Source of the DNA: a virus
IMG/VR virus record: IMGVR_UViG_3300035698_002797
Location: 1 to 37,844 of that record
DNA: 37,844 nt
Reading direction: 5' to 3' (one strand)
Shown here: in pieces, positions 24,290 through 37,247 of the stretch
Numbering within the stretch: the first letter of the stretch is position 1
How the letters are laid out: the number at the start of each line of letters is the position of its first letter
Notes under the pieces: generated by a model
What the model was told of the DNA's origin: nothing
Databases searched by the model: none
The model's input: only the letters and a program-made list of their open reading frames with translations
Made by a program: the position numbers and the translations under genes

Positions 24290-25162
24290 CTAGTCTCCTT
24301 TTATTTTGTTTGCTAAACCTTGTATTAAACTTAGCGCAACATCTTTTCTATGTATTGCATCGCTTTTCATAGCTGAATGGTTGTCGCTAAATTTTACTAA
24401 ACAAATTATACCTTCGTTACACGCCTCCAATATATCGTTTAAATCGCTTTCAGTTATCGTGTATACCTTTTCCTTTTGCTTTTCAAGTGATTTTTGCAAA
24501 ACTTCAACGGCTCTTTTTGTTTGTTTGCTTAGTTCTTTTGATATCGTAGGTTCGACTATGCGGTATAGGTCTAGTCCATTAATTCGTATATTATTATACA
24601 TTATTTCTTTTTGTTCACAAAGTGTTGGTACAAAAACATTATCTTGCCTTTGAAGAACTAAAACATTACTACAATCATCGTTGCAAGCCTCTAAGAACTG
24701 TTTTTTTGTTCTGCCACATGCGGATAGCTCGACTTTCTTTTTTCTGTAAACAAAGCAATCGTCTTTAAACGAGAACTCTTTGTATATTTCTCTCTTAAAC
24801 ACTTTAGGATTATTGCCATATTGCACAATATATTTATTTGGATTCCTACAAGTAAAAAGGTATAAATATGGCTCCAGTTCTGAGTGATATTGTACATAGC
24901 CACTTCTCCATAATACCCCCATGCTAAAAGCTATCTCCTGAACTTTCTTTGACTCTTCAGGCGTAACCCTTAGCTTGATGTCTACCTTGTCGGCTATGGC
25001 TTTGCGTAGTTGTGGGTGGCTTAGTGGGCTGTTTTGTTTAGCTATTGTGTAAGCGTCCGTTCTTTCACATAGCTTGCATTTTGCCTCGTGCCATACTTCC
25101 GTAAGCTCTCCGTTGCATCCACATACTGACTTATCTTTAGTGTGCATTTTAAGATGTTTCAT
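24290..25162 (-). CDS. Hypothetical zinc-finger protein
   Basis: A 290-residue protein. The N-terminus has a Cys/His cluster (CGCNGELTEVWHEAKCKLCERTD, about residues 14-36) that could be a zinc ribbon. The middle is Tyr/Phe-rich and includes HSELEPYLYLFTCRNPNKYI, followed by CGRTKKQFLEAC. The C-terminal third is helical. No family was recognised. It is the longest unknown in the promoter-26200 operon. GGAGGATTG precedes the ATG. Confidence 0.55.
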   Translation of the reverse strand: MKHLKMHTKDKSVCGCNGELTEVWHEAKCKLCERTDAYTIAKQNSPLSHPQLRKAIADKVDIKLRVTPEESKKVQEIAFSMGVLWRSGYVQYHSELEPYLYLFTCRNPNKYIVQYGNNPKVFKREIYKEFSFKDDCFVYRKKKVELSACGRTKKQFLEACNDDCSNVLVLQRQDNVFVPTLCEQKEIMYNNIRINGLDLYRIVEPTISKELSKQTKRAVEVLQKSLEKQKEKVYTITESDLNDILEACNEGIICLVKFSDNHSAMKSDAIHRKDVALSLIQGLANKIKGD

Positions 25163-25165
25163 TTT

Positions 25166-25297
25166 TCAATCCTCCATTTTAAATATTTCTTTACCGCACT
25201 TTTTGCATATAGATAGCGTCGATTGTTCAAAGTGTTCGTGCTCGTAGTCGTGCCAGCATAATAGTTGTCTTAAAAATTGTTTCATTTGGTTATTCAT
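25166..25297 (-). CDS. Small 43-residue zinc-ribbon-like protein
   Basis: ATG at 25297 with an AAAGG box upstream. Contains LLCWHDYEHEHFEQ, then SICKKCGKEIF, a Cys/His set with one CxxC. The stop lies 3 nt before the next gene start, within its ribosome site region. Its start overlaps the previous stop. Confidence 0.6.
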   Translation of the reverse strand: MNNQMKQFLRQLLCWHDYEHEHFEQSTLSICKKCGKEIFKMED

Positions 25298-25601
25298 ATT
25301 TAGCCTTTAACTCCGCTAATAATTTTAATTCTCGTTTTCTATTATCTAGTTCTATTTGTTTATTTCCCTCTAATACTATTTTTTCATATTCTTTTTTCGT
25401 TATAATTCCAAGCTGTACTTTAAAATAATTATTTTCAACATTGTTACTTATTATTAATTTAGAACAACTTTCAAAACACAATATTTTAAAAAATATATAA
25501 GCATCATCAAAAACTATACCTAACATTTCACCCATATCAACTATTTTGGCATAATTAATAGTCTTGCCTACAATATCATTAATATTAGTTAGTTGTTTCA
25601 T
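25290..25601 (-). CDS. Hypothetical protein
   Basis: A 103-residue protein. The first half (INDIVGKTINYAKIVDMGEM) reads as an OB- or SH3-like beta domain, followed by a Lys/Glu-rich helix (RKRELKLLAELKAKYE). It contains two Cys but no zinc pattern. It overlaps the previous gene by 4 nt. No family was recognised. Confidence 0.55.
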   Translation of the reverse strand: MKQLTNINDIVGKTINYAKIVDMGEMLGIVFDDAYIFFKILCFESCSKLIISNNVENNYFKVQLGIITKKEYEKIVLEGNKQIELDNRKRELKLLAELKAKYE

Positions 25602-25987
25602 TTACCAGCCTCCATTTCTGCCAGACACCGCTTGCAGGTTACTCCTGAGCTATAACAGGTTCTTTTATATTTATCTTTACTTTTTAATTCTTTATTACAC
25701 TCTATATGCGAAAAAACTGTTTGCCTAAAGTGTATATAAACCTCGTCCTCGCAATCCGTAAGCCATTGGTTGTATTTATTAAACTTAGATTTTGCCATTT
25801 GTCCAGACTTTGATTTAACAATTCTATAGCTTGTTACATATTCATTTCTTGGATATAGCGAAACAATATGCCATAGCGGTTTATTTTCTCCATATTTAGT
25901 ACAATACATAGATATGCTAACACATTCTCCACTTCTCAACTTATCCTTAACAAACCTCTTAAACTCGCTCTTGTTTTGTAAATTCAT
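25598..25987 (-). CDS. Hypothetical protein with C-terminal Cys cluster
   Basis: A 129-residue basic protein with Lys/Tyr-rich body (GENKPLWHIVSLYPRNEYVTS) and a C-terminal cluster, KRTCYSSGVTCKRCLAEMEA. The AAAGGCTAACAAATG start region is nearly identical to that of the gene at 31248. It overlaps its downstream neighbour by 4 nt. Confidence 0.55.
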   Translation of the reverse strand: MNLQNKSEFKRFVKDKLRSGECVSISMYCTKYGENKPLWHIVSLYPRNEYVTSYRIVKSKSGQMAKSKFNKYNQWLTDCEDEVYIHFRQTVFSHIECNKELKSKDKYKRTCYSSGVTCKRCLAEMEAGK

Positions 25988-26004
25988 TTGTTAGCCTTTT
26001 GTTA

Positions 26005-26175
26005 TTATATGCTTTTTGCGTCTCTTCGCTCATTATCAGAAGGTAATTTATTACAAACATTAATAGCCCTTACGACCTCTTTGTCTTTTGCGCAAACCCC
26101 GTGATAAAGATAGTTTATATCACTGGAAAAAAATCTACATCTACCACATTTAGGTGTCTTAATTGTATTTTTCAT
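26005..26175 (-). CDS. Small 56-residue Cys-rich protein, first gene of its operon
   Basis: ATG 26175 follows AGGAGG with a 6-nt spacing. Four Cys (CGRCRFF, HGVCAKD, NVCNKL) suggest a metal knot. It is the first gene behind the promoter at 26199-26226, which shares its leader with two other early operons. Confidence 0.7.
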   Translation of the reverse strand: MKNTIKTPKCGRCRFFSSDINYLYHGVCAKDKEVVRAINVCNKLPSDNERRDAKSI

Positions 26176-26198
26176 CTTAGCCTCCTTAGCTTTCTTCT

Positions 26199-26226
26199 AG
26201 TATACACGCTTAATCCTGTTTGTCAA
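26199..26226 (-). promoter_or_regulatory. Early promoter P3 (minus strand)
   Basis: TTGACA (26226-26221), 16-nt spacer, TATACT (26204-26199). It has the upstream TTTTAGTC and the downstream leader AAGCTAAGGAGGCT shared with the promoters at 33764-33792 and 36841-36869. Confidence 0.85.
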
Positions 26227-26238
26227 GACTAAAAGCGA

Positions 26239-26445
26239 TTATTTTCCTATTTTATTCCATCTTTTTACAAATCTATGAGATAATTCAGCTAATAACCCCA
26301 GCCTGTGTGCATTCTCTAGCCTTATTTTATCAAATCCGTCAAGGTTGTTTTTTGTGGAGCAATCACCACATACATCTGTGGTAAATGAATTACATTCAAC
26401 AACCCACTTCTTACAATACCTACATTTTCCACCTGTTAAAGCCAT
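26239..26445 (-). CDS. Small zinc-ribbon protein
   Basis: A 68-residue protein with GKCRYCKKW, VECNSFTTDVCGDC, making two CxxC pairs within the first 30 residues, then a helical C-terminus (RLGLLAELSHRFVKRW). A DNA- or RNA-binding adaptor is likely. It has the AAGGAGTAGGGTATG start region found before several genes here. It is the last gene of the upstream operon before promoter P3. Confidence 0.6.
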   Translation of the reverse strand: MALTGGKCRYCKKWVVECNSFTTDVCGDCSTKNNLDGFDKIRLENAHRLGLLAELSHRFVKRWNKIGK

Positions 26446-26501
26446 ACCCTACTCCTTTTTGTTTAAAATGCTTTATTTATCTTGATAGTTGTTAGCTACG
26501 G

Positions 26502-28358
26502 TTAATAGTTATTTGCTCTATCTTCGCTTGCATACTGACTTATTTTTCTAGTCCAAAATCCAGCCTTTTCATATTCGCTAGCTTGGTGCATTTTGCTTAA
26601 GTCATATACAGCACCTCTCTTTGAATCCCATTCTAAAAAAGATATTATACTTGACCCGTCATCTCTTACTTTCTCGGTTAATAGCATTGCTGAAATACGC
26701 TCCCTTGTGTGAGTTGGTAATTTTTTTGCAAGCTTATTTCTTGTTTCTTCATCAAGGCGAACATATCTAAATATAGAATCGGCAATATTTTCTATTTCCT
26801 GTGCTCCTGATATTTTTTGATAACCGTCGCCGCTTTTAGGGTGAGCTATTAAACAGCAATGTACGTTAAATTCATTTACAAAAGCTTTCAGCTTTGCGGC
26901 GATGTTTTCCTGCATTGCAAACTTGCCTTGTCCCATGTTATTACAAAACACCATTAAATTATCAAGAATAAAAACTCTTACATTAAATGATCGTGCAAGT
27001 TTTGTCATTTCAGTAAGTAAATTATCAAATAGCATCTTACTGCTTTTTTTGAGCTCTGGAAAAGCTTCTTTCATGGTTTCACAGTCGGATAGTAATATAT
27101 ACTCGCCATATTGCTTATTAAAGCTATTTAAAGCGTCATCATTAGCGTGATATTCAGAACGCCCCCCAATATTCATGCTTGTACTTATTTGGTTGTTTTC
27201 AGCGCATAGCCTTGCAAGTTTGTTTTTCTCGCTTTCAATGGTAGTTTCACCACAAAACATAAAACATTTTTCTCTTTGTTTTGCTATACTTATCAATCCT
27301 TGTCTGCTGTAAGTGGTCTTACCCTCGCCACGCCTGCCAGTATAAAGCGACAAACAACCCATTCTATAACCTGAATCATTATAATCTTGTGTTAAATATC
27401 CGGTTGCAATAGATTTTTTCTTTTTCGGCTTTCCAACCTCTACACTGTTTTTTATCCCGTTAAGCTTTGGAATTATCGGCTTCATATAATTAAATATTTC
27501 AGCAGGGTTATATTCGGCGCTTTGTAAGTATTCATTAACATCATTTGTCGGTAATTCAATTTTTAATAAATTATATTCTTGTAATAGTTTACTTGCCTTT
27601 TCTAAAAACTCCGATCCGTCTTTATCTGAATCTGGAATTATTATTATTCCATGAAAAGAATCAAGCCAGTTTTTGCAAGTTTCAAACCAACCAAAGCTTT
27701 TAGAGCCGCTGGGAATACTAGAACATAGTATATTTTTATCTTTTTGAGCCATTTTAGCGCACTCTCGCAACGATAAGGCATCTATTTCACCCTCACATAT
27801 AGCCAGTATCTTTTGTGCCTTTAAAAGGTGCAATCCATAAAGTATGTTTTGACCACCTATAGGAGCTGTATATTTATTTTCGCCATTTTTACAAGGCTTT
27901 GTTACTCGCTGTTTAATCTTAACAAGTCCACCGTTATTTGGTAAACAATAATTAAAACAAATCCATTGCTCATTACTTGTTATGTGATATTCTTTTATTG
28001 TTTCTTTTGATATTCCACGGCTAACTAAATAATCAATTCCAATCTTTGACTTTTCTTTTGTTACTGGTTTAATCGGTTTAAATTCAAATGCTTTGTATTC
28101 AACATTTGCTAAGTCGTGAAGTTCTTTTAACCAATCAGAGCTATTTTCCCTATAATAATCTATAATATCGTAGCTAGAGTTGCAATCGAAGCAATGAAAG
28201 TGATTATCTTTCCATTTGTATATTGGATTATTTTTTTTATGTCCACCATGAGGGCATTGCCCTATATAATTACTCCCATTTTTTTGCAATCCGAGCTTTG
28301 ATGCAATGATTGATTCAGCACTATTCCCTATTATCTCTTTTAGTTCTGAAATTTTCAT
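26502..28358 (-). CDS. Replicative primase-helicase (T7 gp4-like layout)
   Basis: A 618-residue protein. Residues 34-60 are a CHC2-like zinc ribbon (CPHGGHK, HFHCFDC) for template recognition. Residues about 180-260 are a TOPRIM with the acidic motif LAICEGEIDALS and PDSDKDGSE. From about 330 comes a RecA/DnaB-type helicase with Walker A TGRRGEGKTTYS (about 340), Walker B VFILDNL (about 463) and an arginine-finger-like end (FRYVRLDEETR). It should unwind the fork and make primers. It overlaps the upstream gene's stop. The sequence between the zinc finger and TOPRIM is shorter than in DnaG. Confidence 0.88.
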   Translation of the reverse strand: MKISELKEIIGNSAESIIASKLGLQKNGSNYIGQCPHGGHKKNNPIYKWKDNHFHCFDCNSSYDIIDYYRENSSDWLKELHDLANVEYKAFEFKPIKPVTKEKSKIGIDYLVSRGISKETIKEYHITSNEQWICFNYCLPNNGGLVKIKQRVTKPCKNGENKYTAPIGGQNILYGLHLLKAQKILAICEGEIDALSLRECAKMAQKDKNILCSSIPSGSKSFGWFETCKNWLDSFHGIIIIPDSDKDGSEFLEKASKLLQEYNLLKIELPTNDVNEYLQSAEYNPAEIFNYMKPIIPKLNGIKNSVEVGKPKKKKSIATGYLTQDYNDSGYRMGCLSLYTGRRGEGKTTYSRQGLISIAKQREKCFMFCGETTIESEKNKLARLCAENNQISTSMNIGGRSEYHANDDALNSFNKQYGEYILLSDCETMKEAFPELKKSSKMLFDNLLTEMTKLARSFNVRVFILDNLMVFCNNMGQGKFAMQENIAAKLKAFVNEFNVHCCLIAHPKSGDGYQKISGAQEIENIADSIFRYVRLDEETRNKLAKKLPTHTRERISAMLLTEKVRDDGSSIISFLEWDSKRGAVYDLSKMHQASEYEKAGFWTRKISQYASEDRANNY

Positions 28359-29137
28359 TTAATCACCCCTGGCATATCTACTAAGTGGCTTTCTTGAAAA
28401 TCTTCGTCCCACGCCGTCGGCATGTTTTCAGTAATCTTTAATAAATCTTCTGTTTCTTGTTGTTTTTTAGTGGGTTGTTTTTTGTCGTAATTATTATCCA
28501 TCCACTTATTCATGCGAAGTTTAGTTTTCCAAGTTTTCTGTAATTGAAATTTCATTTTGTCTTTTTCGTTTGGCTCTGTCCAATAATCTAAAAATTTTCT
28601 TGTATTTTTAGTGTCCCAAAAGTTTTGAAACTCGCTAACACCGTTTTTGTAACAATCTGAAATATCTTTTTTAAAATCTTCAATAGAAAACTTTTTGTAT
28701 GTTTTCTTTACTGGTTTATTGGTTTCTTGGTTTATTGGTTTAACTATATGTACTTTGCTTTGCCTACTGCTTTGCCCTTGCTTTGCCCTATGCTTTACGA
28801 TTGCTTTGTCTAGTGCTTTGCCGTTTTTTGGCATAGCATGAGGTAAGCTTATTATATTTGCTGAATATTGATTTGTTGATTTTTGAATCAAAATTAAAAA
28901 CCCCCATTCAATTAAATCATTAAAAGCTTTTATATAGGTTTGGTGTTTTTTTATTCCTAAAGCTTCCATTGTCATTTGAGACGGAAATCCAAATTTTTGT
29001 TTCCATCCTAATCTATTACAATGCTCAATAGCAAAAAAGTATATAGCTGAATGTTTTGGACTTATCTTTTCAGGATTTTCAAAACAAAAATCGAACCATC
29101 CACGAGATAAATTATAACTATTGAGTTTTTTTGACAT
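28355..29137 (-). CDS. Replication initiation/DnaD-O-like protein
   Basis: A 260-residue protein. Residues about 10-110 form a winged-helix-like domain (SPKHSAIYFFAIEHCNRLGW, FPSQMTMEALGIKKHQTYIKAFNDLIEWGFL) as in phage O, DnaD and similar initiators. A basic linker and a helical C-terminal part with DNA-helicase-loader character follow (DFKKDISDCYKNG, WTEPNE). ATG 29137 was chosen because GGGGG lies 6 nt upstream; an ATG at 29188 has no site. It precedes the primase-helicase by a 4-nt overlap, a typical initiator/helicase pair. Confidence 0.7.
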   Translation of the reverse strand: MSKKLNSYNLSRGWFDFCFENPEKISPKHSAIYFFAIEHCNRLGWKQKFGFPSQMTMEALGIKKHQTYIKAFNDLIEWGFLILIQKSTNQYSANIISLPHAMPKNGKALDKAIVKHRAKQGQSSRQSKVHIVKPINQETNKPVKKTYKKFSIEDFKKDISDCYKNGVSEFQNFWDTKNTRKFLDYWTEPNEKDKMKFQLQKTWKTKLRMNKWMDNNYDKKQPTKKQQETEDLLKITENMPTAWDEDFQESHLVDMPGVIK

Positions 29138-29528
29138 TATTAACCCCCGAGCATTTATCACAGTATATATCAAATCTAAAGTAATCACCTAGTCGTGCAA
29201 CCGTACTGCAATTAGCATTGACTATAGGCTGTTTGCATTTAGTACACTTACAAGGGCTGTAGGTTGCACCGTTTTCTATTTCGTGTACTTGACTATGGCA
29301 GGAGTCGCAAAGAGTTGTTAAGCAGTCGTTAGAATACTCCCACGCATAACAGTTAGGAATATAAAATAAATGGTGTGCTGTAAGAGTTAATGAATCAGAG
29401 CCGCATTTTTGACATATAAAATTATCACGGTTTTTTACTTGTTCAGCTTTTCGTCTCCATCTGGGGTCTTTTAGCTGATCGTTGTATGGAATAAACTTTC
29501 TATCTGTTTCCTGCGGATTCTTTGTCAT
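29118..29528 (-). CDS. HNH endonuclease-like protein
   Basis: A 136-residue protein. The first 30 residues contain DPRWRRKAEQVKNRDN, followed by an HNH motif: FICQKCGSDSL, AHHLFY and DCLTTLCDSCHSQVHE. The four Cys form the zinc site and the HH plus C-terminal H form the beta-beta-alpha metal site. A further Cys cluster (CKCTKCKQP, YCDKCSG) sits in the C-terminal tail. It could be a packaging-linked or homing nuclease. It stands between methylase and initiator genes. Confidence 0.75.
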   Translation of the reverse strand: MTKNPQETDRKFIPYNDQLKDPRWRRKAEQVKNRDNFICQKCGSDSLTLTAHHLFYIPNCYAWEYSNDCLTTLCDSCHSQVHEIENGATYSPCKCTKCKQPIVNANCSTVARLGDYFRFDIYCDKCSGVNNVKKTQ

Positions 29529-29589
29529 GGTAATTTTCCTTTACGTTTACATTTACATTTTCTCTAAGCTTGTTTGATAACGCCCACAT
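29500..29589 (-). CDS. Possible 29-residue ORF overlapping the HNH gene start
   Basis: ATG 29589 reads WALSNKLRENVNVNVKENY in a coding-like frame, and the open frame extends upstream to about 29635 without a standard start. The amino-acid make-up looks natural, but no good ribosome site is seen. It may be a remnant. Confidence 0.3.
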   Translation of the reverse strand: MWALSNKLRENVNVNVKENYHDKESAGNR

Positions 29590-29617
29590 GTAAGTCTTAG
29601 CTACAGTTATAGCGGCT

Positions 29618-30043
29618 CTAGGGACGTTTATTTCCTCTAAATATTACAATCATACTGTCGTGTTTACCTTTATTTTTAGTAGAGTATTTCCCCTTTGTAT
29701 TATACCCTTTAAAAGCTATACGACCTTTTATAAATCTTATTTCTGCATTTGGCAACATTAATTCGTGAAATTGCTTAGTCCCAGTTGCGCTAGGTATTAA
29801 CAAAACACAAGTTTTACCTTTTTGCCATTCTTCATAAGCTTTTTGTATAAATTTAGGCTTATTTATTCTATCATAAGGTGGATTAATAAAGTTTGATTTT
29901 CCCCATTCTGTTTTTAGTCCGTCAAAATTGGCGTTTAATGGACAAGGATCATAGTCGAAATTAAACTCACCATTTAACTCGTTGTATAAATAATCAGGAG
30001 TTTCCCAGTTATTGCTATTCTCTAATCCATCTCTATTTTTCAT
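29618..30043 (-). CDS. dam: Phage DNA N6-adenine methyltransferase (Dam-like)
   Basis: A 141-residue enzyme expected to methylate adenine N6. The sequence NNWETPDYLYNELN opens a domain with YDPCPLNANFDGL, then FINPPYDRINK (the NPPY catalytic motif, about residues 52-62), then GKTCVLLIPSATGTKQFHE and IRFIKGRIAFKG. This fits the short phage Dam family. It probably protects phage DNA from host restriction. AAGGAG lies 9 nt upstream. Neighbours are HNH nucleases. The target site is unknown. Confidence 0.85.
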   Translation of the reverse strand: MKNRDGLENSNNWETPDYLYNELNGEFNFDYDPCPLNANFDGLKTEWGKSNFINPPYDRINKPKFIQKAYEEWQKGKTCVLLIPSATGTKQFHELMLPNAEIRFIKGRIAFKGYNTKGKYSTKNKGKHDSMIVIFRGNKRP

Positions 30044-30366
30044 AATAACTCCTTTATTTGTGATTTGATTTCTTTTTCTAAGTCCTGTAGCTCTGGAAGG
30101 TGCCAGATTTTATAGCTCCTGTCAAGATTACTAATTAAAGTAGGTTCTTCGTCGTGCTCTTTTCTGTGGCAAGTTCGGCAAACCCATGCAAGATTATCTT
30201 GATTCCAGCGGTTTCGCTTATGGTTACGACTTATTATGTGGTGAGTGTCGCTCCCATATTGTCCGCAAACCTTGCATATACCACCAGCTAATAGCTTGCA
30301 CAACTCGCTAGATAGTTTGTCTAGGTGCTTCTCTATTGCTTTTATTTTGCTGTTAATTGTTGGCAT
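30040..30366 (-). CDS. HNH endonuclease / NinG-like nuclease
   Basis: A 108-residue protein. After a helical start come CKVCGQYGSDTHHIISR, the RW segment, NLAWVCRTCHRKEHDEE. The two CxxC pairs plus HH and the final H match HNH nucleases and phage NinG/Rap-type recombination nucleases. It lies between the methylase and small zinc-finger genes in the early operon. Overlaps the next gene by ATGA. Confidence 0.7.
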   Translation of the reverse strand: MPTINSKIKAIEKHLDKLSSELCKLLAGGICKVCGQYGSDTHHIISRNHKRNRWNQDNLAWVCRTCHRKEHDEEPTLISNLDRSYKIWHLPELQDLEKEIKSQIKELL

Positions 30367-30367
30367 A

Positions 30368-30589
30368 TTAGCAACTCCTTATGTTTAAAAATCCAGCGAT
30401 TAAACCAGCTCGCAAGTTATCACGGTCTATAGGATTAATAGTTTCGGTTATAGGCTTTAAATATCGCTTAGATTGCTTGTATTTATCCTTTGCATTTAAC
30501 TTTGTACAGTCAGCGCAGACTTTATAAAAACCACCGCCAGAACGACGGTAGAATTTGTCCTTATGTTGTTTGCATTGTGAACATATCAT
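30368..30589 (-). CDS. Small zinc-finger protein
   Basis: A 73-residue protein. ATG 30589 is preferred over TTG 30607 because AAGGA lies 7 nt upstream. CSQCKQHKDKFYRRSGG and VCADCTK form two CxxC pairs, and the rest is basic (KDKYKQSKRYLKP). Resembles the zinc-binding head of endonuclease VII/HNH relatives, but has no catalytic HNH part. Likely nucleic-acid binding. Confidence 0.55.
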   Translation of the reverse strand: MICSQCKQHKDKFYRRSGGGFYKVCADCTKLNAKDKYKQSKRYLKPITETINPIDRDNLRAGLIAGFLNIRSC

Positions 30590-30599
30590 TAGTTTATCC

Positions 30600-30683
30600 T
30601 TATTCAAACATATCTATTTCTATAGCTTTATTTTCAAAGCGTGAATAAGCAAGCGGAATATTTATTTTTGATTGTTTAGTCAT
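30600..30683 (-). CDS. Possible 27-residue peptide
   Basis: ATG 30683 reads TKQSKINIPLAYSRFENK and ends in a short acidic/hydrophobic tail, IEIDMFE. GGAGG lies about 12 nt upstream, which is wide. Its coding frame ends at 30600 in the AATAAGGA site of the next gene. Confidence 0.4.
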   Translation of the reverse strand: MTKQSKINIPLAYSRFENKAIEIDMFE

Positions 30684-30882
30684 TATTTTTAATTACCTCC
30701 GTTAATCCCTGCATCACTTCGTCTACCGTCATGTGTCTATTGTCGGAAAAGCCTACAATGTCGCAGAGGTTGCCTTTAAGCTCGTTTATATACTCGTTAC
30801 CAACGCACCCCTTACACGTTCTTTCGTTGCTACAGTGCCGTATCATGTCCTCGGCTTGATTCTTTAGGTGTTTAGCGTTCAT
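30676..30882 (-). CDS. Small Cys-containing protein
   Basis: A 68-residue protein, with the start preceded by GAGGTG. It has CSNERTCKGC and NLCDIVG plus a helical C-terminus (MTVDEVMQGLTEVI). No family was recognised. It follows a 190-base gap with RNA-like features. Confidence 0.55.
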   Translation of the reverse strand: MNAKHLKNQAEDMIRHCSNERTCKGCVGNEYINELKGNLCDIVGFSDNRHMTVDEVMQGLTEVIKNND

Positions 30883-30973
30883 TCTTTCACCTCAATAAAA
30901 AGCCCTAATCAGCTAGGATAGTAGCCAAAAAGAGCTTAAGTTTTATATTACGTTCTATCCAACGTTAATTTTT

Positions 30974-31037
30974 AAAAAAAGCGGTGTCCATTTCGTAGTA
31001 AAGGAGGAGGCTTTAAAATGAAAGGTGGAGCACCGCC
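30974..31037 (-). ncRNA. Candidate ~64-nt hairpin RNA with an anti-Shine-Dalgarno loop
   Basis: On the minus strand GCGGTGCTCCA (31036-31026) pairs with TGGACACCGC (30990-30981), with one bulged base, and TTTTTTT follows at 30980-30974. The 35-nt loop contains TAAAGCCTCCTCCTTT. A promoter ends 7 nt upstream, so the whole transcript would be this hairpin. The loop is complementary to 8-11 nt of the early leaders (AGGAGGCTTTA and relatives). If upstream transcripts read in, the same structure acts as a terminator. No expression data. Confidence 0.5.
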
Positions 31038-31047
31038 TAAAGTATTA
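31018..31047 (+). CDS. Possible 9-codon ORF on the complementary strand of the hairpin
   Basis: On the plus strand AAGGAGGAGG (31001-31010) lies 7 nt before ATG 31018, which reads KGGAPPKVL and then stops. No plus-strand promoter was seen. It looks like an inverted copy of an early-gene leader rather than a working gene. Confidence 0.2.
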
Positions 31048-31071
31048 TAACCCTCGTTTGCTGTTTGTTAA
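31044..31071 (-). promoter_or_regulatory. Promoter of the hairpin RNA (minus strand)
   Basis: TTAACA (31071-31066), 16-nt spacer, perfect TATAAT (31049-31044). The predicted start at about 31037 is the first base of the hairpin. It lies right after the stop of the gene at 31075. Confidence 0.6.
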
Positions 31072-31074
31072 GCC

Positions 31075-31248
31075 CTATTCTTCTTCTTTTTTGAATTTAT
31101 ATATATGCCATACTAGTTCTTCGCTTTCTGTCATTATTGTATCTAGATACTCTAGCGTGTTTATTGTTTCTGATATTCCCCACCCTAGAGCCTTCCTTAT
31201 TCTCTTTTCTTGGGCTTCGGTTATCGTTTTGACTTCTTCGGATTTCAT
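31075..31248 (-). CDS. Small 57-residue hypothetical protein
   Basis: ATG 31248 with the AAAGGCTAACAAATG start region. An acidic/helical peptide (KSEEVKTITEAQEKRIRKA) ending in a run of Glu. It follows the SSB-like gene in the early operon. Confidence 0.55.
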   Translation of the reverse strand: MKSEEVKTITEAQEKRIRKALGWGISETINTLEYLDTIMTESEELVWHIYKFKKEEE

Positions 31249-31276
31249 TTGTTAGCCTTTCTTGATTGAGTTTTGA

Positions 31277-31591
31277 TTAAAATGGAATATTTGGCTGATC
31301 GTTATCTATTGTTGTATTAGTGTCATTCGTCATAGCTGGATAACCACTAGGTGCTTGACCGCCTTGCTGTTGAGGTTCTTGCTGTTTTGGTTTCCAAGTG
31401 TCTAGTTTGCCGTACATTTTGCCGGATTGTTGACTCTTAGCTACAATAGCATTTACCCAGCCATTGTCATTGTGCTTTTGTAAAAACTGTATGAACTCAT
31501 CTACTTTAAACGATAGCTTTGTTATAGTACCGCCGTCTTGGAACTTGTGCTCTTTGCAAATCATTCCATCTGTGAAAATTACGTCTGCCAT
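31277..31591 (-). CDS. Single-strand DNA-binding-like protein
   Basis: A 104-residue protein. The N-terminal 65 residues are an OB-fold-sized beta domain (ADVIFTDGMICKEHKFQDGG, FIQFLQKHN, WVNAIVAKS). A Gln/Gly/Pro-rich linker follows, ending in an acidic-hydrophobic tip, DNDQPNIPF. A disordered linker with a DDxIPF-like tip is the hallmark of SSB proteins, which recruit partners. Location beside the Rad52-like annealase supports a recombination/replication role. The OB-fold itself is inferred. Confidence 0.6.
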   Translation of the reverse strand: MADVIFTDGMICKEHKFQDGGTITKLSFKVDEFIQFLQKHNDNGWVNAIVAKSQQSGKMYGKLDTWKPKQQEPQQQGGQAPSGYPAMTNDTNTTIDNDQPNIPF

Positions 31592-31607
31592 TATTCTACT
31601 CCTTTAT

Positions 31608-32036
31608 TTATTCTGGGTCTGGTAAATGACAATCGAATTTGTCAATACTCAGCTTATCCAAAAAGTTAATATAATTTATCATTTGTTCAATGTCTGAATT
31701 TTCCTTGTAAAACTTTTCTATTCCTTGGTTTATGCAAAATAAACGTTTAAAAAATAAGTCCGCTGTATATTTATTGCCTTTTACCTCTATTGTTTCGCTT
31801 CCAGTTTTAATCTCAAATAAAAACCCCTGTGTATCATCATACCATGCTATTAAATGCGGATAAACTACCCCGTATAAGTATTTTAGTTGCTCCCATGTTT
31901 TATACTTCTTAGGCTCAGAGAAAACCCCTAATCTCCAGCCGTCCTCTTTTACTTCATCTTGCAACTTGTCAAACTCGTCGTAAGCAGGGCGCAAAAGACC
32001 GTTTTTCTTATGGAACATTATTGATTGTTTTTTCAT
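31608..32036 (-). CDS. Recombination-associated protein, NinB-like (weak)
   Basis: A 142-residue protein next to Rad52-like and SSB-like genes. It has YDEFDKLQDEV, KTWEQLKYLYGVVYPHLIAWY and a C-terminus with NYINFLDKLSIDKFDCHLPDPE. The size, helical content and neighbours are like NinB/Orf proteins, which load recombinases on SSB-coated DNA. Only a general resemblance was seen. Overlaps the Rad52-like gene by ATGA. Confidence 0.4.
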   Translation of the reverse strand: MKKQSIMFHKKNGLLRPAYDEFDKLQDEVKEDGWRLGVFSEPKKYKTWEQLKYLYGVVYPHLIAWYDDTQGFLFEIKTGSETIEVKGNKYTADLFFKRLFCINQGIEKFYKENSDIEQMINYINFLDKLSIDKFDCHLPDPE

Positions 32037-32806
32037 GCCAACCTCGGCAACGGCTTGTCTATTCCATTAACGTCATTATCTTCAATCCATTGTATGCACT
32101 TGTTGTATTCAGATTTTTTAATCATGCTTGCCTCTTGTGCCTTGAACAAATCTTTAAATACCTGAATTGACACGCCGGAGGTAATCAAAAAGCCTCTTAT
32201 TTGTTTTTGCAGTTCAAGGTTTATGAATATATTATCGTCCTCGTGCATAGCCCACGCTTCAAGCTCTGGCACTTCCCAGAAGAAATTTAATCCTCCATGC
32301 TTTGCTGATGTTTTCGCAGATTTCCAACCAGCTTTTTTTCTGTAAGCCTTTTCCATGCTACATTGAACAAAACGCTCTTTTAAGTTATAAAGATAGCGAC
32401 CTATTCCCCATTGAACGGCAGCACGCTTCATTGATCCAGATATTCCACCCTTAAAACTTGCTATGTCTGTATTTTCTGCTCCGTCCCACTTAGTTATCCA
32501 TTCACCGTTTATATTGATTGATATTCCACACATGGAACCGCCGTCAAGGTTTACAAATTCATTACGCCAGTTTTCAATGCCTACAATTTCATCAAGTCGC
32601 TCTTGTATTGCTCGGCTTGTAACATATACCAAAGCCATAGCCCATATACCATTGTCGTTTTTGCCGGACATTTGCAAACGCCATTCAAGGTCATCTTTTC
32701 TAAATGGCTCACTTAGTTTATTCCGCAAGCTTTTTACAGAGTCGCTTTTCTCAATAGCTGTAAAAGATAAATCGCTTAAGCTATTATTTACTGTTATGTT
32801 TGGCAT
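32033..32806 (-). CDS. Rad52/Rad22-like single-strand annealing protein
   Basis: A 257-residue annealase expected to pair complementary single strands. The block LSEPFRKDDLEWRLQMSG is followed by MALVYVTSRAIQERLDEIVG, ENWRNEF, then TDIASFKGGISGSMKRAAVQWGIGRYLYNL. This last stretch is the conserved Rad52 beta-beta-alpha core with the KRAAxxxGIGRYLY motif. The C-terminal 100 residues are variable and helical. AAGGAG lies 8 nt upstream. It forms an operon with the SSB-like and NinB-like genes. Confidence 0.85.
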   Translation of the reverse strand: MPNITVNNSLSDLSFTAIEKSDSVKSLRNKLSEPFRKDDLEWRLQMSGKNDNGIWAMALVYVTSRAIQERLDEIVGIENWRNEFVNLDGGSMCGISININGEWITKWDGAENTDIASFKGGISGSMKRAAVQWGIGRYLYNLKERFVQCSMEKAYRKKAGWKSAKTSAKHGGLNFFWEVPELEAWAMHEDDNIFINLELQKQIRGFLITSGVSIQVFKDLFKAQEASMIKKSEYNKCIQWIEDNDVNGIDKPLPRLA

Positions 32807-32828
32807 ATTAAACTCCTTTGTTGTTATG

Positions 32829-33446
32829 CTATTTAAAATACGCTATAAACTTATCACTTCCGTATTGACCTTTTATTATGCTCAGTACTTTGTCAAGTGG
32901 CAATTCATCTTTAGTTATGTTGTTTTGTTTCTTAAACTGATCATCCCCAAAAGAACAAGCTCCTGTAATCAATCTGTATTGGTTTTTACTAACCGAGCCA
33001 GTTGATTTTATCTCACTTATTAATTTAAACACATCAAAAGTTTCTTGGAGATATTTAAAATTAACATCTTCAACAGCTTGTTTGATTGTTTTGCCGTGTG
33101 CATAATATTTCCCACGTTTAGCGATGCAACACTTTTCCAAGTTTTTTATTTCACCACCGCCAAAATAGCAAGCTTTATAAATTGTAAAGTCGCCCTTTTG
33201 TTTTTCAGAGTGAATTAACATAGTTGAGTTGTCTATATTAATTAATATTATTTCTTCACCTTTGTAAATTATGGTCATATTCGGCAAGTATACATTACCT
33301 TGATTCTCAAACTTGACGCCCTCTGGTAATGTCGTTAGGCTTTCCAAGTATACACCACCTTGATGATTTACGATTATTTGGTTTTTGGTTTTTCTAAAAG
33401 CATAACCGATTTCTCTTAATACTGCAATAAATTTTTTGTCTTTCAT
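32829..33446 (-). CDS. Modular protein with LT.LPEG repeat and HGKT domain (DUF7666-like)
   Basis: A 205-residue protein. ATG 33446 is preferred over an upstream TTG because AAGGAG lies 9 nt before it. Residues about 25-60 hold a repeat-like stretch, GGVYLESLTTLPEGVKFENQ, resembling the LTSIPEGF repeats of phage proteins. Residues about 108-135 include CIAKRGKYYAHGKTIKQAVED, recalled as the core of DUF7666-type phage domains. The end carries SKNQYRLITGACSFGDDQF. The domain names are from memory and unchecked. It lies upstream of the Rad52-like gene. Function unknown. Confidence 0.5.
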   Translation of the reverse strand: MKDKKFIAVLREIGYAFRKTKNQIIVNHQGGVYLESLTTLPEGVKFENQGNVYLPNMTIIYKGEEIILINIDNSTMLIHSEKQKGDFTIYKACYFGGGEIKNLEKCCIAKRGKYYAHGKTIKQAVEDVNFKYLQETFDVFKLISEIKSTGSVSKNQYRLITGACSFGDDQFKKQNNITKDELPLDKVLSIIKGQYGSDKFIAYFK

Positions 33447-33450
33447 AATC

Positions 33451-33531
33451 CTACTCCTTAGCTTTTTTAGTTTTCTTTCTTTCGTCAAAGTCTTTTTTCA
33501 TAGCCTCTGTTAAGTCTGTAAATAAGCTCAT
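33451..33531 (-). CDS. Possible 26-residue peptide
   Basis: ATG 33531 with AGGGG 7 nt upstream codes SLFTDLTEAMKKDFDERK followed by a Lys-rich end. The stop lies 4 bases before the next start, and the site GCTAAGGAGTAGGATTATG is shared. Very small and basic. Confidence 0.5.
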   Translation of the reverse strand: MSLFTDLTEAMKKDFDERKKTKKAKE

Positions 33532-33542
33532 TTTAATCCCCT

Positions 33543-33734
33543 TTAAATTGGTTCTGATTCACAGTAAGCGCCACACTCTGCACATCGACCAGTGCCGACA
33601 TTAACGCCTTGACGTTCTAGTTCAACAGTACAACCGCATTCAGAACATTTCATTTGGTCTGGGTATTCACATTCTGAAACTTCGTCTGGCATTGCGTTGT
33701 CGTGCTTCCATTGTGCATTAGAAAAGTTACTCAT
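33543..33734 (-). CDS. Small zinc-ribbon protein, first gene of its operon
   Basis: A 63-residue protein: acidic N-terminus (SNAQWKHDNAMPDEVSECEY), then MKCSECGCTVELER and GRCAECGAYC, a two-CxxC zinc ribbon like transcription-factor or RNA-polymerase knuckles. It is the first gene behind promoter P2 and carries the leader GCTAAGGAGGCTTAATAATG. A role as an early regulator is an inference from position and motif. Confidence 0.65.
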   Translation of the reverse strand: MSNFSNAQWKHDNAMPDEVSECEYPDQMKCSECGCTVELERQGVNVGTGRCAECGAYCESEPI

Positions 33735-33763
33735 TATTAAGCCTCCTTAGCTTTGTTACTTAT

Positions 33764-33792
33764 AGTATACTGCACAAAACGGGCTTTGTCAA
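33764..33792 (-). promoter_or_regulatory. Early promoter P2 (minus strand)
   Basis: TTGACA (33792-33787), 17-nt spacer, TATACT (33769-33764). It has the same TTTTAGTC upstream and AAGCTAAGGAGGCT downstream boxes as P1 and P3. Confidence 0.85.
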
Positions 33793-33815
33793 GACTAAAA
33801 GGTAAATTTTATTGA

Positions 33816-34088
33816 TTATTTTTCAAGTATTTTCTTAAGCTTTTTAATAGTGCCGTACTTGTCTTTTTTCATGTCGTTCCAGAGGTAGATAATTGCAACC
33901 CTGATAAATCCATCTTCGCTAATCTTACACCATGAATTAACCGCCTTAAAGACTGCCAGTATTTTATTACAGAAAGAAGGAGTCCTGCCGGATCGCATTT
34001 TCATTCCTTTTTCTTTTGACCGCTGGCTTGCCTCTGCCAACTCGTTTAACAGCTCGTCGCTGAACATTGCTCTAGTTTCTTTAGTCAT
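33816..34088 (-). CDS. Small hypothetical protein
   Basis: A 90-residue basic helical protein (LNELAEASQRSKEKG, WCKISEDGFIRVAIIYLWNDM). No family was recognised, but the length and Lys-rich ends suit DNA or RNA binding. It overlaps the upstream small gene. It ends 24 bases before promoter P2. Confidence 0.5.
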   Translation of the reverse strand: MTKETRAMFSDELLNELAEASQRSKEKGMKMRSGRTPSFCNKILAVFKAVNSWCKISEDGFIRVAIIYLWNDMKKDKYGTIKKLKKILEK

Positions 34089-34206
34089 TGCCTACCCCTT
34101 TTTTGTTTTGTAGTTTTCTGCGCTCTTTGATTATTTTTCTAAGCTCTTTATAAAGCTCGATTTCTCTTTTTAGTAGAGCTAATATTCTATCTTGTGTTTT
34201 GCTCAC
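34081..34206 (-). CDS. Small 41-residue coiled-coil protein
   Basis: GTG start at 34206 inside the stop of the previous gene (GTGA), with GAGGTG upstream. Reads SKTQDRILALLKREIELYKE and then basic residues: an amphipathic helix. It overlaps the next gene by 8 nt. Confidence 0.55.
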   Translation of the reverse strand: MSKTQDRILALLKREIELYKELRKIIKERRKLQNKKGVGND

Positions 34207-34385
34207 CTTGACACCTCTAAGCCGTCTATCCAGCTTCCGTCTACGTTCATTACGCCGTGTATTATGTTGTCGTTTATTTGTAATTGTTTTCCGGCGTTAA
34301 ATTCGTTCTCGTTTTCAGACCGCTTTAAATATAGAAATCCAGCGAGTAAAAGTATTATCAGTATGTAAATCATTGTGTCTTTCAT
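34203..34385 (-). CDS. Small single-TM protein
   Basis: A 60-residue protein with MIYILIILLLAGFLYL as one N-terminal TM helix or signal anchor, followed by a polar domain (KRSENENEFNAGKQ). Its ATG overlaps the stop of the previous gene (ATGA). A possible membrane-located early protein (exclusion or host-takeover), not established. Confidence 0.55.
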   Translation of the reverse strand: MKDTMIYILIILLLAGFLYLKRSENENEFNAGKQLQINDNIIHGVMNVDGSWIDGLEVSR

Positions 34386-34516
34386 TTTTCGTTATCCTTT
34401 TTAATTTTGTTTCTGTCCTTATCAGACATAATGTTTAGCTTTAGTTTCTTGAACGGCTTGTAGCTTGAGCCGTAATTACTGCTTACTTTTTGTGTGGTGT
34501 TGGTTATTTTTGGCAT
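34382..34516 (-). CDS. Small 44-residue basic protein
   Basis: ATG 34516 codes PKITNTTQKVSSNYGSSYKP and a Lys-rich tail, ending in the ATGA shared with the TM protein. Starts within the end of the preceding gene, whose frame stops at 34504. Confidence 0.5.
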   Translation of the reverse strand: MPKITNTTQKVSSNYGSSYKPFKKLKLNIMSDKDRNKIKKDNEK

Positions 34517-34764
34517 TGTTCAACACCTAGTTCTTTTTTTAATTTATTATACAGCCTCCACTTTTCTGCTAGTGTTTCTTTATCTTCGTACCATTTATCA
34601 ATAATATCCTTTTTTGTACTTGTCTCTAGTACACAAACTCTGATACTATTAAAAGTAAAAGATACGGGGGCGTGTGTTTTACTGGATAGCTCCAAGGCGT
34701 CTTGCGTTGTGCATTCAATGCTATCGCCAGCATAAGCAATTATTATTGTTTCTTTTATTTTCAT
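34504..34764 (-). CDS. Small hypothetical protein
   Basis: An 86-residue alpha/beta protein (KETIIIAYAGDSIECTTQDA, APVSFTFNSIRVCVLETS) with a Lys/Glu-rich C-terminus. AATAAGGAGTAGGATTATG precedes it, a start region shared with other early genes. No family was recognised. Confidence 0.5.
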   Translation of the reverse strand: MKIKETIIIAYAGDSIECTTQDALELSSKTHAPVSFTFNSIRVCVLETSTKKDIIDKWYEDKETLAEKWRLYNKLKKELGVEQCQK

Positions 34765-34775
34765 AATCCTACTCC

Positions 34776-35234
34776 TTATTTTATTTTTACAATCAACGGC
34801 TCTTGACCTTTATACGAAAAGCAAAGGCTTTCTGCGTCGCTGGTTAGGTTGGTGAAGTTGAAAGTCATGCCATCACGATATTCGCCAAAATTAAACAATA
34901 GAACACAATAATTTTCTTTTTGTTCTATAATTATAGTTTCAGCAAATTCTATAAATATTTTTTTCCAGCGATGGGAATACTTAACACCTGCCCGATCCAG
35001 AACCTTGCACGCTTGGCTTATTGATATACTCATTAGTAGCCCCTTTGGTGGAAACATTACTATAACAAAAACCAAAATAAACACAACACCTAGCAATAGA
35101 TATGACAGTAAATGCAGGCACGATATAGTATTTGTATATAGCTCTGGTTGTCCATGTTTTATAATACAAAATAATATATTAATTATAAATAAATATAAGA
35201 GGAGTATATTGTTTACTTTATATAGCAACATCAT
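34776..35234 (-). CDS. Two-TM membrane protein with soluble tail
   Basis: A 152-residue protein. Two hydrophobic helices (residues about 8-25, LLLYLFIINILFCIIK, and about 40-62, LLSYLLLGVVFILVFVIV), then a beta-rich soluble domain (YSHRWKKIFIEFAETIIIEQ, NYCVLLFNFGEYR). GGAGGCTACCAAATG precedes. The topology suggests an inner-membrane early protein. Function not recognised. Confidence 0.55.
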   Translation of the reverse strand: MMLLYKVNNILLLYLFIINILFCIIKHGQPELYTNTISCLHLLSYLLLGVVFILVFVIVMFPPKGLLMSISISQACKVLDRAGVKYSHRWKKIFIEFAETIIIEQKENYCVLLFNFGEYRDGMTFNFTNLTSDAESLCFSYKGQEPLIVKIK

Positions 35235-35596
35235 TTGGTAGCCTCCAGTTCGGTTAGGTTTTCTATAAATCTTTCATAAAGCTTAACTTCTAGTGAGTTG
35301 CGCCTAATTTCTGCATTTATAACATCTACATAAAACGGCTTTTCTGTACGTTCTATTTCTTTAAAGTGTATTTGGTCGTTGCACTCTATAATTGCATCTT
35401 CATACTTCTCAATAAGCTCCTTAATCTTATCCGCTTTAACTAATCCACGGTAGTAATCTTCTGACACTATGCGAAAGTCAACGCTAGAAGTATAGCCGTT
35501 TATCAGCACCCTTTGGTCGCCAGCCTTTAGCAAAACAGGTTCTTTCTTTTTGATGTTCATTCCGTAGTCCCTCAAGTCGCTTGTGGTCTGTTTCAT
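35231..35596 (-). CDS. Hypothetical helical protein
   Basis: A 121-residue protein. The middle (LVKADKIKELIEKYEDAIIE) and C-terminus (RNSLEVKLYERFIENLTELE) are long helices. No cysteines or TM segments. It overlaps the next gene's start by 4 nt. Role unknown. Confidence 0.5.
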   Translation of the reverse strand: MKQTTSDLRDYGMNIKKKEPVLLKAGDQRVLINGYTSSVDFRIVSEDYYRGLVKADKIKELIEKYEDAIIECNDQIHFKEIERTEKPFYVDVINAEIRRNSLEVKLYERFIENLTELEATK

Positions 35597-35597
35597 T

Positions 35598-35729
35598 TTA
35601 CTTTTCTCCTGTTATTATTTCTACAAACTCAAGCCCTATTTTTTCGGCTTGTTTGATTTGACGTGATAAATCCTTTTCCGTAGTTTTCATCTTTACATAT
35701 ACTTCTTTGCTTTTGTATGTTGCTGTCAT
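35598..35729 (-). CDS. Small 43-residue basic protein
   Basis: ATG 35729 with AAGGA 9 nt upstream. Codes TATYKSKEVYVKMKTTEKDL and an amphipathic helix. Stop followed by the next start within 2 nt. Confidence 0.55.
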   Translation of the reverse strand: MTATYKSKEVYVKMKTTEKDLSRQIKQAEKIGLEFVEIITGEK

Positions 35730-35733
35730 TTGA

Positions 35734-35898
35734 TTAGTCCTTTTCGGTTAGTATTGTAATTAGTATATCTATATGATTTTCAAACGCAGTATTAAAATTT
35801 TCATCGTATAATGTTTGAACAAAAATAGATATTGGTGATATTGCAATAAACATAAATGCTGCGATACATCTAAAAGGTATTGAGATTAAATAAATCAT
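35734..35898 (-). CDS. Small one-TM protein
   Basis: A 54-residue protein: IYLISIPFRCIAAFMFIAIS plus PISIFVQ form one long hydrophobic segment, then an acidic C-terminal stretch. ATG 35898 overlaps the stop of the preceding membrane peptide (ATGA). An upstream ATG at 35949 is in the overlapping gene and is not preferred. Confidence 0.55.
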   Translation of the reverse strand: MIYLISIPFRCIAAFMFIAISPISIFVQTLYDENFNTAFENHIDILITILTEKD

Positions 35899-36002
35899 TT
35901 TAAAACCCTCTTTAATATTGAAGTTATAGCGATCCCTGACGGCACACAAATTAAAGCTAGGTATACAGCAGGGTTTGATAGTAAAAGTGTTAGCGTTTGC
36001 AT
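35895..36002 (-). CDS. Small 35-residue membrane peptide
   Basis: ATG 36002 with GGAGG 6 nt upstream. QTLTLLLSNPAVYLALICVP is one TM helix, with a basic tail (LKRVLK). Ends with ATGA overlap to the next TM gene, so the two are made together, possibly a pair. Confidence 0.55.
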   Translation of the reverse strand: MQTLTLLLSNPAVYLALICVPSGIAITSILKRVLK

Positions 36003-36015
36003 TTAGACCTCCAGT

Positions 36016-36183
36016 TTATGTAGTTGCTGTATATTTATGAGCTTTAGTTATTTCATTTTTTAACTTGCGTAAACATTTATCACATAAGTGCGTATTGCTA
36101 TTGTTTATATGTATTTTTCTTGACGGCTTTGTATTGCAATTAAAGCAATGACAATCATAAGTATTATTCCCGACTTTAATCAT
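36016..36183 (-). CDS. Small 55-residue zinc-ribbon protein
   Basis: ATG 36183, GGAG 9 nt upstream. TYDCHCFNCNTKPSRK followed by HLCDKCLRKL makes two Cys/His pairs (CHC.NC and CDKC). The tail is basic. It overlaps the upstream gene's stop. Confidence 0.6.
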   Translation of the reverse strand: MIKVGNNTYDCHCFNCNTKPSRKIHINNSNTHLCDKCLRKLKNEITKAHKYTATT

Positions 36184-36532
36184 TTTTTAATCTCCGCTTG
36201 CTTAGTATTGGCGTAGAATGATTAACAAAGCCTACAATAATATCTTTATAATAATGATTGTCGTCTGCAATATTAACACCATTTCTTCTTGCTGGTGTAC
36301 CATCTGTTTTTAAGACAATCCCATGATAATACATTAGTCTAGTACTATCAAAACAAATCATTGTTATTTTTGTGTTTTTAATGCAATCACTAGCAAACAT
36401 TTTCACCTTAACAATATCACCTAATTTATATTTAGTGTGTTTTTCTGCATATTCCTGTTCTAGTTTTCTTTTTTTGATTTGCAACTCCATTATATCGCAA
36501 TCTAAACTAGTAATCTTTTGTAATAAGTTCAT
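36176..36532 (-). CDS. Hypothetical protein with coiled-coil head
   Basis: A 118-residue protein. The first 35 residues form a coiled coil (DIMELQIKKRKLEQEYAEKH). The rest is a beta domain, like an SH3/KOW fold (YKLGDIVKVKMFASD, YYHGIVLKTDG). No family was recognised. Overlaps the zinc-ribbon gene. Confidence 0.5.
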   Translation of the reverse strand: MNLLQKITSLDCDIMELQIKKRKLEQEYAEKHTKYKLGDIVKVKMFASDCIKNTKITMICFDSTRLMYYHGIVLKTDGTPARRNGVNIADDNHYYKDIIVGFVNHSTPILSKRRLKND

Positions 36533-36576
36533 TGTATTCCCTCCAGCAGTTTAAACTTGCTTAGGTTGGTTGGTTA

Positions 36577-36810
36577 TTAAATATCACACGGTATAATATA
36601 ACCGCCTTTAGATAAACATATTTGATGAAGTGCGTTATTTATTTCAATCCAGTACAAATGAATTATATAGTTTTTTGAGTTAATATCATTATTATATTTC
36701 TTTTTTTGTAATTTAAATACCTCTTGGGTTGTTTCTATTTCGTTTATTATAACTTTAACCGATTCACCTACTTTTAATGATTCATATTCTTTATTGCTAT
36801 AACGTTTCAT
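36577..36810 (-). CDS. First gene of the early operon, small beta protein
   Basis: A 77-residue protein with SH3-like beta character (LKVGESVKVIINEIETTQEV). The leader GCTAAGGAGGCTTTACATG follows promoter P1. Eleven bases (AGGAGGCTTTA) of the leader are perfectly complementary to the hairpin RNA loop at 31005-31015. Function not recognised. Confidence 0.6.
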   Translation of the reverse strand: MKRYSNKEYESLKVGESVKVIINEIETTQEVFKLQKKKYNNDINSKNYIIHLYWIEINNALHQICLSKGGYIIPCDI

Positions 36811-36840
36811 GTAAAGCCTCCTTAGCTTGTTGTTATCTAT

Positions 36841-36869
36841 ATAATACTACACGAAAAGCAGTTTGTCAA
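36841..36869 (-). promoter_or_regulatory. Early promoter P1 (minus strand)
   Basis: TTGACA (36869-36864), 17-nt spacer, TATTAT (36846-36841). Upstream GTTTAGTC and downstream AAGCTAAGGAGGCT boxes match P2 and P3. Confidence 0.85.
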
Positions 36870-36959
36870 GACTAAACTAGAAAAAAAGCGGGATTTTTTA
36901 GACATTTGTTAAGTTTAACCTCAAAATAAGATTAATTCAAACTATTTTCGATTAAGGGG
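36870..36959. other. Intergenic control region between divergent promoters
   Basis: Ninety bases between P1 and the plus-strand promoter at 36960. It holds a 12-bp palindrome GTTAAGTTTAAC (36908-36919) and an A/T-rich stretch. No reading frame of note. The palindrome is a candidate operator. No repressor gene is seen in this window. Confidence 0.4.
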
Positions 36960-36988
36960 TTGACAAATCTCTAAACTAATAGTATTAT
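36960..36988 (+). promoter_or_regulatory. Promoter of the ~85-nt RNA (plus strand)
   Basis: TTGACA (36960-36965), 17-nt spacer, TATTAT (36983-36988). The predicted start is about 36995. Confidence 0.75.
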
Positions 36989-36994
36989 ATTAGT

Positions 36995-37079
36995 ATGCTA
37001 GGAGGCTTAATATAATATATTTTATCTTAATCTCTCGCACAAATAAATAACTCAAATTATTTATTTGTGCATTTTTTTT
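36995..37079 (+). ncRNA. Candidate ~85-nt RNA with a Shine-Dalgarno box but no standard start codon
   Basis: The transcript from the promoter at 36960 carries CTAGGAGGCTTAAT (36998-37011), the same box found in the early leaders. In place of ATG it reads ATAATATAT, and no ATG, GTG or TTG lies before the terminator. It ends at a 14-bp hairpin plus T8. It could be a decoy for ribosomes or for the anti-Shine-Dalgarno hairpin RNA. Inference only. Confidence 0.55.
37037..37079 (+). terminator. Strong intrinsic terminator of the ~85-nt RNA
   Basis: Perfect 14-bp stem GCACAAATAAATAA/TTATTTATTTGTGC (37037-37050, 37057-37070) with a 6-nt loop and TTTTTTTT at 37072-37079. Confidence 0.9.
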
Positions 37080-37099
37080 ATTCTTTTTCCATTCTGCTA

Positions 37100-37128
37100 T
37101 TGACAAACTGGGGAAACTGTGGTATACT
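37100..37128 (+). promoter_or_regulatory. Promoter of the right-end genes (plus strand)
   Basis: TTGACA (37100-37105), 17-nt spacer, TATACT (37123-37128), which is followed by a long leader. Confidence 0.8.
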
Positions 37129-37137
37129 TATAATATC

Positions 37138-37225
37138 AACTAGAAAGAGTTTATTAATTAAACCAGCCCCAGATTGGATAAGAACTTGCCTAACAGCTCT
37201 TTTTTAGTTGAACCATGACGGGGCT
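37138..37225 (+). promoter_or_regulatory. Leader with possible H-type pseudoknot
   Basis: AACTAGAAAGAG (37138-37149) pairs with CTCTTTTTTAGTT (37197-37209), with a small internal bulge, and AGCCCC (37165-37170) in its loop pairs with GGGGCT (37220-37225). GGGGCT is followed by TTTATTTT and AGGAGG (37236-37240 region), so the structure sits next to the start at 37248 and could control termination or translation. Confidence 0.4.
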
Positions 37226-37247
37226 TTTATTTTCAGGAGGTCATAAC

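Follow-up and report, generated by a model that had tools for sequence, protein, structure and literature searches.

A candidate small-RNA gene in the early region of a tailed phage, with a loop complementary to three early leaders

Introduction

In a virus record of 37,844 bases (the whole stretch of DNA analysed here, called the window), a promoter stands directly before a hairpin that ends in a run of T. The question raised by this locus is whether it is an ordinary transcription terminator or the gene of a small RNA that acts on other transcripts of the virus. The genes of the window are those of a tailed phage (portal, terminase, Erf-like annealing protein, primase/helicase and Dam methylase), and from about 24 to 36.8 kb they run on the minus strand. 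A nucleotide comparison with 50,697 phage records gave no match to the window, whether near or distant mode was used, and two scans of a genome collection with the helicase found neither host nor prophage.

Promoter, hairpin and terminator

The elements of the locus are as follows:

31044-31071, minus strand: promoter TTAACA-16-TATAAT of the small RNA (promoter scan; 11 of 12 consensus positions)
30974-31038, minus strand: predicted small RNA of ~65 nt, a single hairpin with a U-tail (predicted start at the stem base)
30974-30980, minus strand: T7 of the intrinsic terminator, giving the U-tail (from the sequence)
31004-31010, minus strand: apical loop CCUCCUC, anti-Shine-Dalgarno (from the fold; weak closing stem UAAAG/CUUUA)
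31005-31015, minus strand: anti-leader segment UAAAGCCUCCU, comprising the loop and its 5' flank (matches 11, 9 and 8 nt of three early leaders)
31018-31023, minus strand: UUUCAU, with complementarity to the AUGAAA that opens gene 36577-36810 at its start codon (from the sequence and the predicted duplex)

The hairpin spans 31038-30981 and begins 6 nt past the -10 element, and the predicted RNA is nearly all hairpin, with the weak UAAAG/CUUUA stem placed on top of a G+C-rich basal stem. Its minimum free energy is -19.7 kcal/mol (z -5.1), a value equalled by none of 200 shuffles. A preliminary description made from the sequence had proposed this minus-strand promoter with a start at the hairpin base and a T7 tail, as well as an RNA of about 64 nt that is mostly stem-loop, and both proposals were borne out. 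Promoter sites as good as this one number six within 24000-37844, where a first-order Markov model expects 0.65 (sd 0.8). Its sequence (CTTAACAAACAG) resembles that of the early promoter at 26226 (CTTGACAAACAG), which makes it probable that the small RNA is produced along with the early genes. No match to the element was found in Rfam at the gathering threshold or at E<=5.

Early leaders as predicted targets

A near-identical promoter and leader (TTTAGTCTTGACAAA ... GCTAAGGAGGCT ... ATG) is common to the minus-strand gene starts 36810, 33734 and 26175, and the distances of the leaders from the RNA gene are, in ascending order, 2.7, 4.8 and 5.8 kb:

36812-36869, minus strand: best predicted target, with an early promoter (TTGACA-17-TATTAT) followed by leader GCTAAGGAGGCTTTAC, before gene 36577-36810 (77 aa)
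33737-33792, minus strand: predicted target, with an early promoter (TTGACA-17-TATACT) followed by leader GCTAAGGAGGCTTAATA, before gene 33543-33734 (63 aa)
26179-26226, minus strand: predicted target, with an early promoter (TTGACA-16-TATACT) followed by leader GCTAAGGAGGCT, before gene 26005-26175 (56 aa)

The longest matches of the loop segment to these leaders are 11 nt at 36810, 9 nt at 33734 and 8 nt at 26175, as had been described before. Apart from the complement of the loop itself, the exact 11-mer AGGAGGCTTTA is found in the window only at 36822-36812 (minus strand). At 36810 the predicted duplex continues beyond a small internal loop, where UUUCAU pairs with AUGAAA and the start codon is reached. 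When the 58 gene starts of the window are ordered by duplex energy, the leaders take places 1, 3 and 4, and the non-target start 34206 has an energy about equal to theirs. Predicted net binding, in which the own folds of both RNAs are counted, is modest (-7.0, -7.1 and -10.9 kcal/mol). No antirepressor domain was recognised in the small genes headed by the three leaders. A late-region gene start at 21162 on the plus strand (TTTAAGGAGGCTTATAATG) also has a 9-nt match to the loop.

A relative with a changed loop and a changed leader

Relatives of the phage were found by the helicase: L060 (76% identity), L061/L062 (77%, two contigs covering the same sequence region) and L063 (73%). An RNA gene of the same layout is present in L060, flanked by homologues of the window genes 31608-32036 and 30040-30366, so that the positions correspond:

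L060 5991-6093: small-RNA module with TTGACA-17-TATTAT, start at the stem base, CCUCC loop and T5

The hairpin of L060 begins 6-7 nt downstream of the promoter and the predicted RNA has ~67 nt (-21.2 kcal/mol, z -5.0); by eye, the two RNAs share little beyond UCCUCC. Three gene starts of L060 (194, 4422 and 9703) also share a leader, which differs from that of the window (GCUGGAGGGCU / GCTGGAGGGCT). Start 194 heads the homologue of the window gene 33543-33734, start 9703 comes shortly after the helicase, which is nearly the position of 26175 in the window, and for the leader at 4422 no promoter of its own is apparent. With the leaders of its own phage the L060 loop (CCUCCAGCUU) has matches of 10, 9 and 8 nt. 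Crossed between the phages, the window loop matches the L060 leaders over 5, 5 and 8 nt (the 8 nt being start-codon bases and not the Shine-Dalgarno sequence) and the L060 loop matches the window leaders over 6, 5 and 5 nt. The leaders read GCTAA-GGAGG-CTT in the window and GCT-GGAGG-GCTT in L060, and each loop spans the particular junction of its own phage. Loop and leader thus appear to have changed together, which is what the preliminary description had expected of relatives; the one comparison available, between the two phages that carry the gene, suggests it.

Predicted net binding in L060 (-3.8, -1.2 and -2.3 kcal/mol) is weaker than in the window. Since the window RNA also scores -7.0 with one of the L060 leaders, energies alone do not show the specificity seen in the exact matches. 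Another part of the L060 RNA (CTCTCCTCAA) has 10-nt complementarity to the L060 gene start 5131 (TTGAGGAGAG), a possible fourth target. Directly downstream of the L060 small RNA lies a gene for a Cro/CI-type HTH protein (6132-6359), whereas the window has an unrelated gene there.

Neither an RNA gene of this kind with an anti-leader loop nor a comparable leader common to three separate gene starts was found in L062 and L063. A scan for the module of promoter, hairpin and T-run over 875 kb gave few matches of comparable strength. An exact search of IMG/VR with the loop 15-mer returned 51 other stretches, by our estimate about the chance number, none of them with the promoter-hairpin-T layout. 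In the search with the promoter-plus-leader pattern L060 was the sole relative, the other matches having no window gene in common, and searches with neighbouring proteins (31277-31591, ERF and 37215-37655) led to distant or unrelated contigs, except L063. The L060 RNA had only weak, sub-threshold matches to unrelated families in Rfam.

Chance matches and alternative explanations

The simplest alternative is an ordinary intrinsic terminator in the early operon, with or without a nearby promoter, whose loop resembles an anti-leader by chance. The element does have the form of a terminator and is sited between same-strand genes; moreover, CT-rich loops readily match Shine-Dalgarno sequences, and a CCTCC-rich stretch of any origin does so to some degree. 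However, with only 6 nt between promoter and stem, transcription would yield mainly the hairpin itself, and the unusual layout recurs at the corresponding locus of L060 with an unrelated stem sequence and again with a loop directed to its own leaders. Dinucleotide-shuffled loops match as well as the real loop in 0.4-0.5% of cases for the window (0.41% by best match) and equal the best match in 0.31% for L060, and by Fisher's method the two frequencies (0.0041 and 0.0031) combine to ~1e-4, which argues against a chance loop. A second background consisted of 1504 CCTCC-containing stretches of other phage DNA in which selected motifs were masked; an earlier estimate was discarded because most of its loci had been chosen for the loop motif. 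Two of the 1504 reach the 11 nt of the window and five its summed match, and 23 reach the best match of L060, with 1.3-1.5% of the stretches fitting the L060 leaders as well as the L060 loop does, so that the case of the window is strong and that of L060 moderate on its own. That the layout recurs at the equivalent position of L060 does not enter into these tests. We regard a terminator with a chance loop as unlikely.

A generic anti-Shine-Dalgarno RNA acting on many host and phage ribosome-binding sites, similar to the alpha-proteobacterial alpha-r14/cuckoo RNAs, is an improbable explanation. The UCCUCC core is common to both phages, several other gene starts score well and the loop of the window RNA (CCUCCUCCU) closely resembles the alpha-r14 motif CCUCCUCCC (PMC10746234). 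On the other hand, beyond the core the bases of the two RNAs diverge in parallel with the leaders of the two phages, and no such Rfam family was found here.

It is also conceivable that the opposite strand is the functional one, either because a leader peptide of 10 codons (MKGGAPPKVL) is translated from it behind a perfect Shine-Dalgarno sequence or because it is a relic inverted early leader. The plus strand at AAAGGAGGAGGCTTTAAAATGAAAGG does read as an ideal start; opposite the window hairpin it inevitably gives a perfect Shine-Dalgarno sequence and a 10-codon open reading frame (AAAGGAGGAGGCTTTAAAATG...). No good plus-strand promoter stands in front of it, and in both phages the promoter and the U-tail are on the other strand. 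In L060 the ATG is far from the Shine-Dalgarno sequence and a TAG follows at once; the leader peptide was rejected as it is not kept there, and the opposite-strand explanation as a whole is highly improbable. Least probable of all is a cis attenuator, in which an early transcript holds the leader and, 2.7 kb on, an anti-leader hairpin with modulated termination: the hairpin does belong to the run of genes downstream of the promoter at 33792-33764, but an attenuator would not need a dedicated promoter at the hairpin base, and an unsystematic look revealed no alternative antiterminator stem.

Proposed mechanism

With its own promoter, a short structured product, a U-tail and complementarity to distant ribosome-binding sites, the locus has the features of a trans-acting antisense small-RNA gene. 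We consider it a real small-RNA gene, most likely for a trans-acting antisense repressor of early translation, with a probability of roughly two in three. The promoter, the hairpin, the terminator, the complementarity and the joint change of loop and leader in one relative can be read in the DNA itself; from them we infer the transcription of the small RNA, its binding in vivo, the repression and its timing.

According to this mechanism, an RNA of ~65 nt would be transcribed within the early region from its own vegetative-type promoter. In both phages an exposed CCUCC loop stands over a weak stem of which one strand extends the complementarity, which suggests contact by the loop first and opening of the strand afterwards. 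The apical loop would first touch the Shine-Dalgarno sequence that the three early leaders have in common, after which the weak stem below it would open and the flanking strand would lengthen the pairing by bases particular to each phage (in the window UAAAG on the 5' side, in L060 AGCUU on the 3' side). Such pairing would cover the ribosome-binding site, at 36810 together with the start codon, and would block initiation at three operon heads. Since it shares its promoter class with the early genes, the RNA would accumulate alongside early transcription and would damp translation of the three operon heads as a delayed negative feedback. Net binding predictions being modest, a chaperone or kinetic pairing may matter. 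Phage-specific immunity is a possible further role of the small RNA.

Comparison with known antisense RNAs

The best-described phage antisense RNAs, sar, OOP and C4, act on one main gene each. One small RNA fitting a leader common to three early operons, its loop and the leader changing jointly between relatives, would be the RNA equivalent of a repressor with several operators, and a phage-specific RNA immunity would be open to direct reporter tests. In P1 and P7, looped parts of the small C4 RNA base-pair with a phage mRNA at its ribosome-binding region, and C4 underlies P1/P7 heteroimmunity (PMC12197685). The likeness to the window RNA lies in a loop complementary to the ribosome-binding site of the target and differing with it between related phages, here in one pair. 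Unlike C4, which acts on one mRNA (the antirepressor ant), the window RNA is predicted to act on three separate leaders kilobases away, and it has its own promoter and terminator, a single hairpin and no Rfam match. The sar RNA of P22, a compact phage RNA of 68/69 nt, prevents the synthesis of one protein by pairing with a phage mRNA (PMC12197685); it resembles the window RNA in size but has one described target (ant) against three predicted targets encoded elsewhere.

In the alpha-r14/cuckoo RNAs (NfeR1), hairpin regions exposing CCUCCUCCC silence mRNAs at the translation initiation region (PMC10746234). These RNAs are bacterial and carry three hairpins, each with the identical ultraconserved CCUCCUCCC, whereas the phage RNAs are phage-borne, have one hairpin and differ in their loops (CCUCCUCCU in the window and CUCCUCCAG in L060). 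The nearest system in action is C4, and the predicted action is C4- or sar-like outside those families. The window RNA is best classed as a variant of the trans-acting antisense RNAs, and membership in C4, sar or alpha-r14/cuckoo fails on the lack of an Rfam match, on several leaders instead of one target and on one hairpin instead of three.

A second short transcription unit and the neighbouring leader

Another short unit lies on the plus strand:

36960-37078, plus strand: second short transcription unit with promoter TTGACA-17-TATTAT, a leader copy GCTAGGAGGCTTAA without start codon, and a terminator hairpin (37037-37070) with a T-run

In its predicted RNA (36995-37078), GCTAGGAGGCTTAA comes immediately after the strong promoter and has a 9-nt match to the small-RNA loop. 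This RNA may serve as a decoy for the small RNA, or it may be what remains of an early leader. Within its own fold the Shine-Dalgarno sequence is paired, and co-folding with the small RNA gave no net gain, which makes the decoy idea speculative. The region corresponding to 36960-37078 is absent from the L060 contig, and no counterpart of the unit was seen in L063. Among host regulators, the SisA-D sRNAs of Caulobacter act via a 10-mer with an anti-Shine-Dalgarno signature and CrfA is their sponge RNA (PMC12559287); here, by contrast, the putative decoy is in a phage.

Taken together with the small RNA, this unit permits a wider and doubtful interpretation, an early circuit made of RNA only, in which one repressor RNA would serve several operons through a shared leader operator, the co-evolving loop and leader would give private specificity (RNA-based heteroimmunity) and the start-codon-less copy at 36995-37078 would titrate the repressor as a decoy.

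Beyond this unit, the plus strand of the window at 37100-37215 forms a long leader before a DUF6948 gene, with potential alternative hairpins (AACTAGAAAGAG...CTCTTTTTTAGTT; AGCCCC...GGGGCTTTT) and no match of this leader in Rfam. The DUF6948 homologue of L063 is preceded by a different hairpin leader and adjoins a low-complexity tandem repeat (L063 1225-1585) that encodes long runs of Ala/Leu/Met or Gly/Ser/Asp/Tyr.
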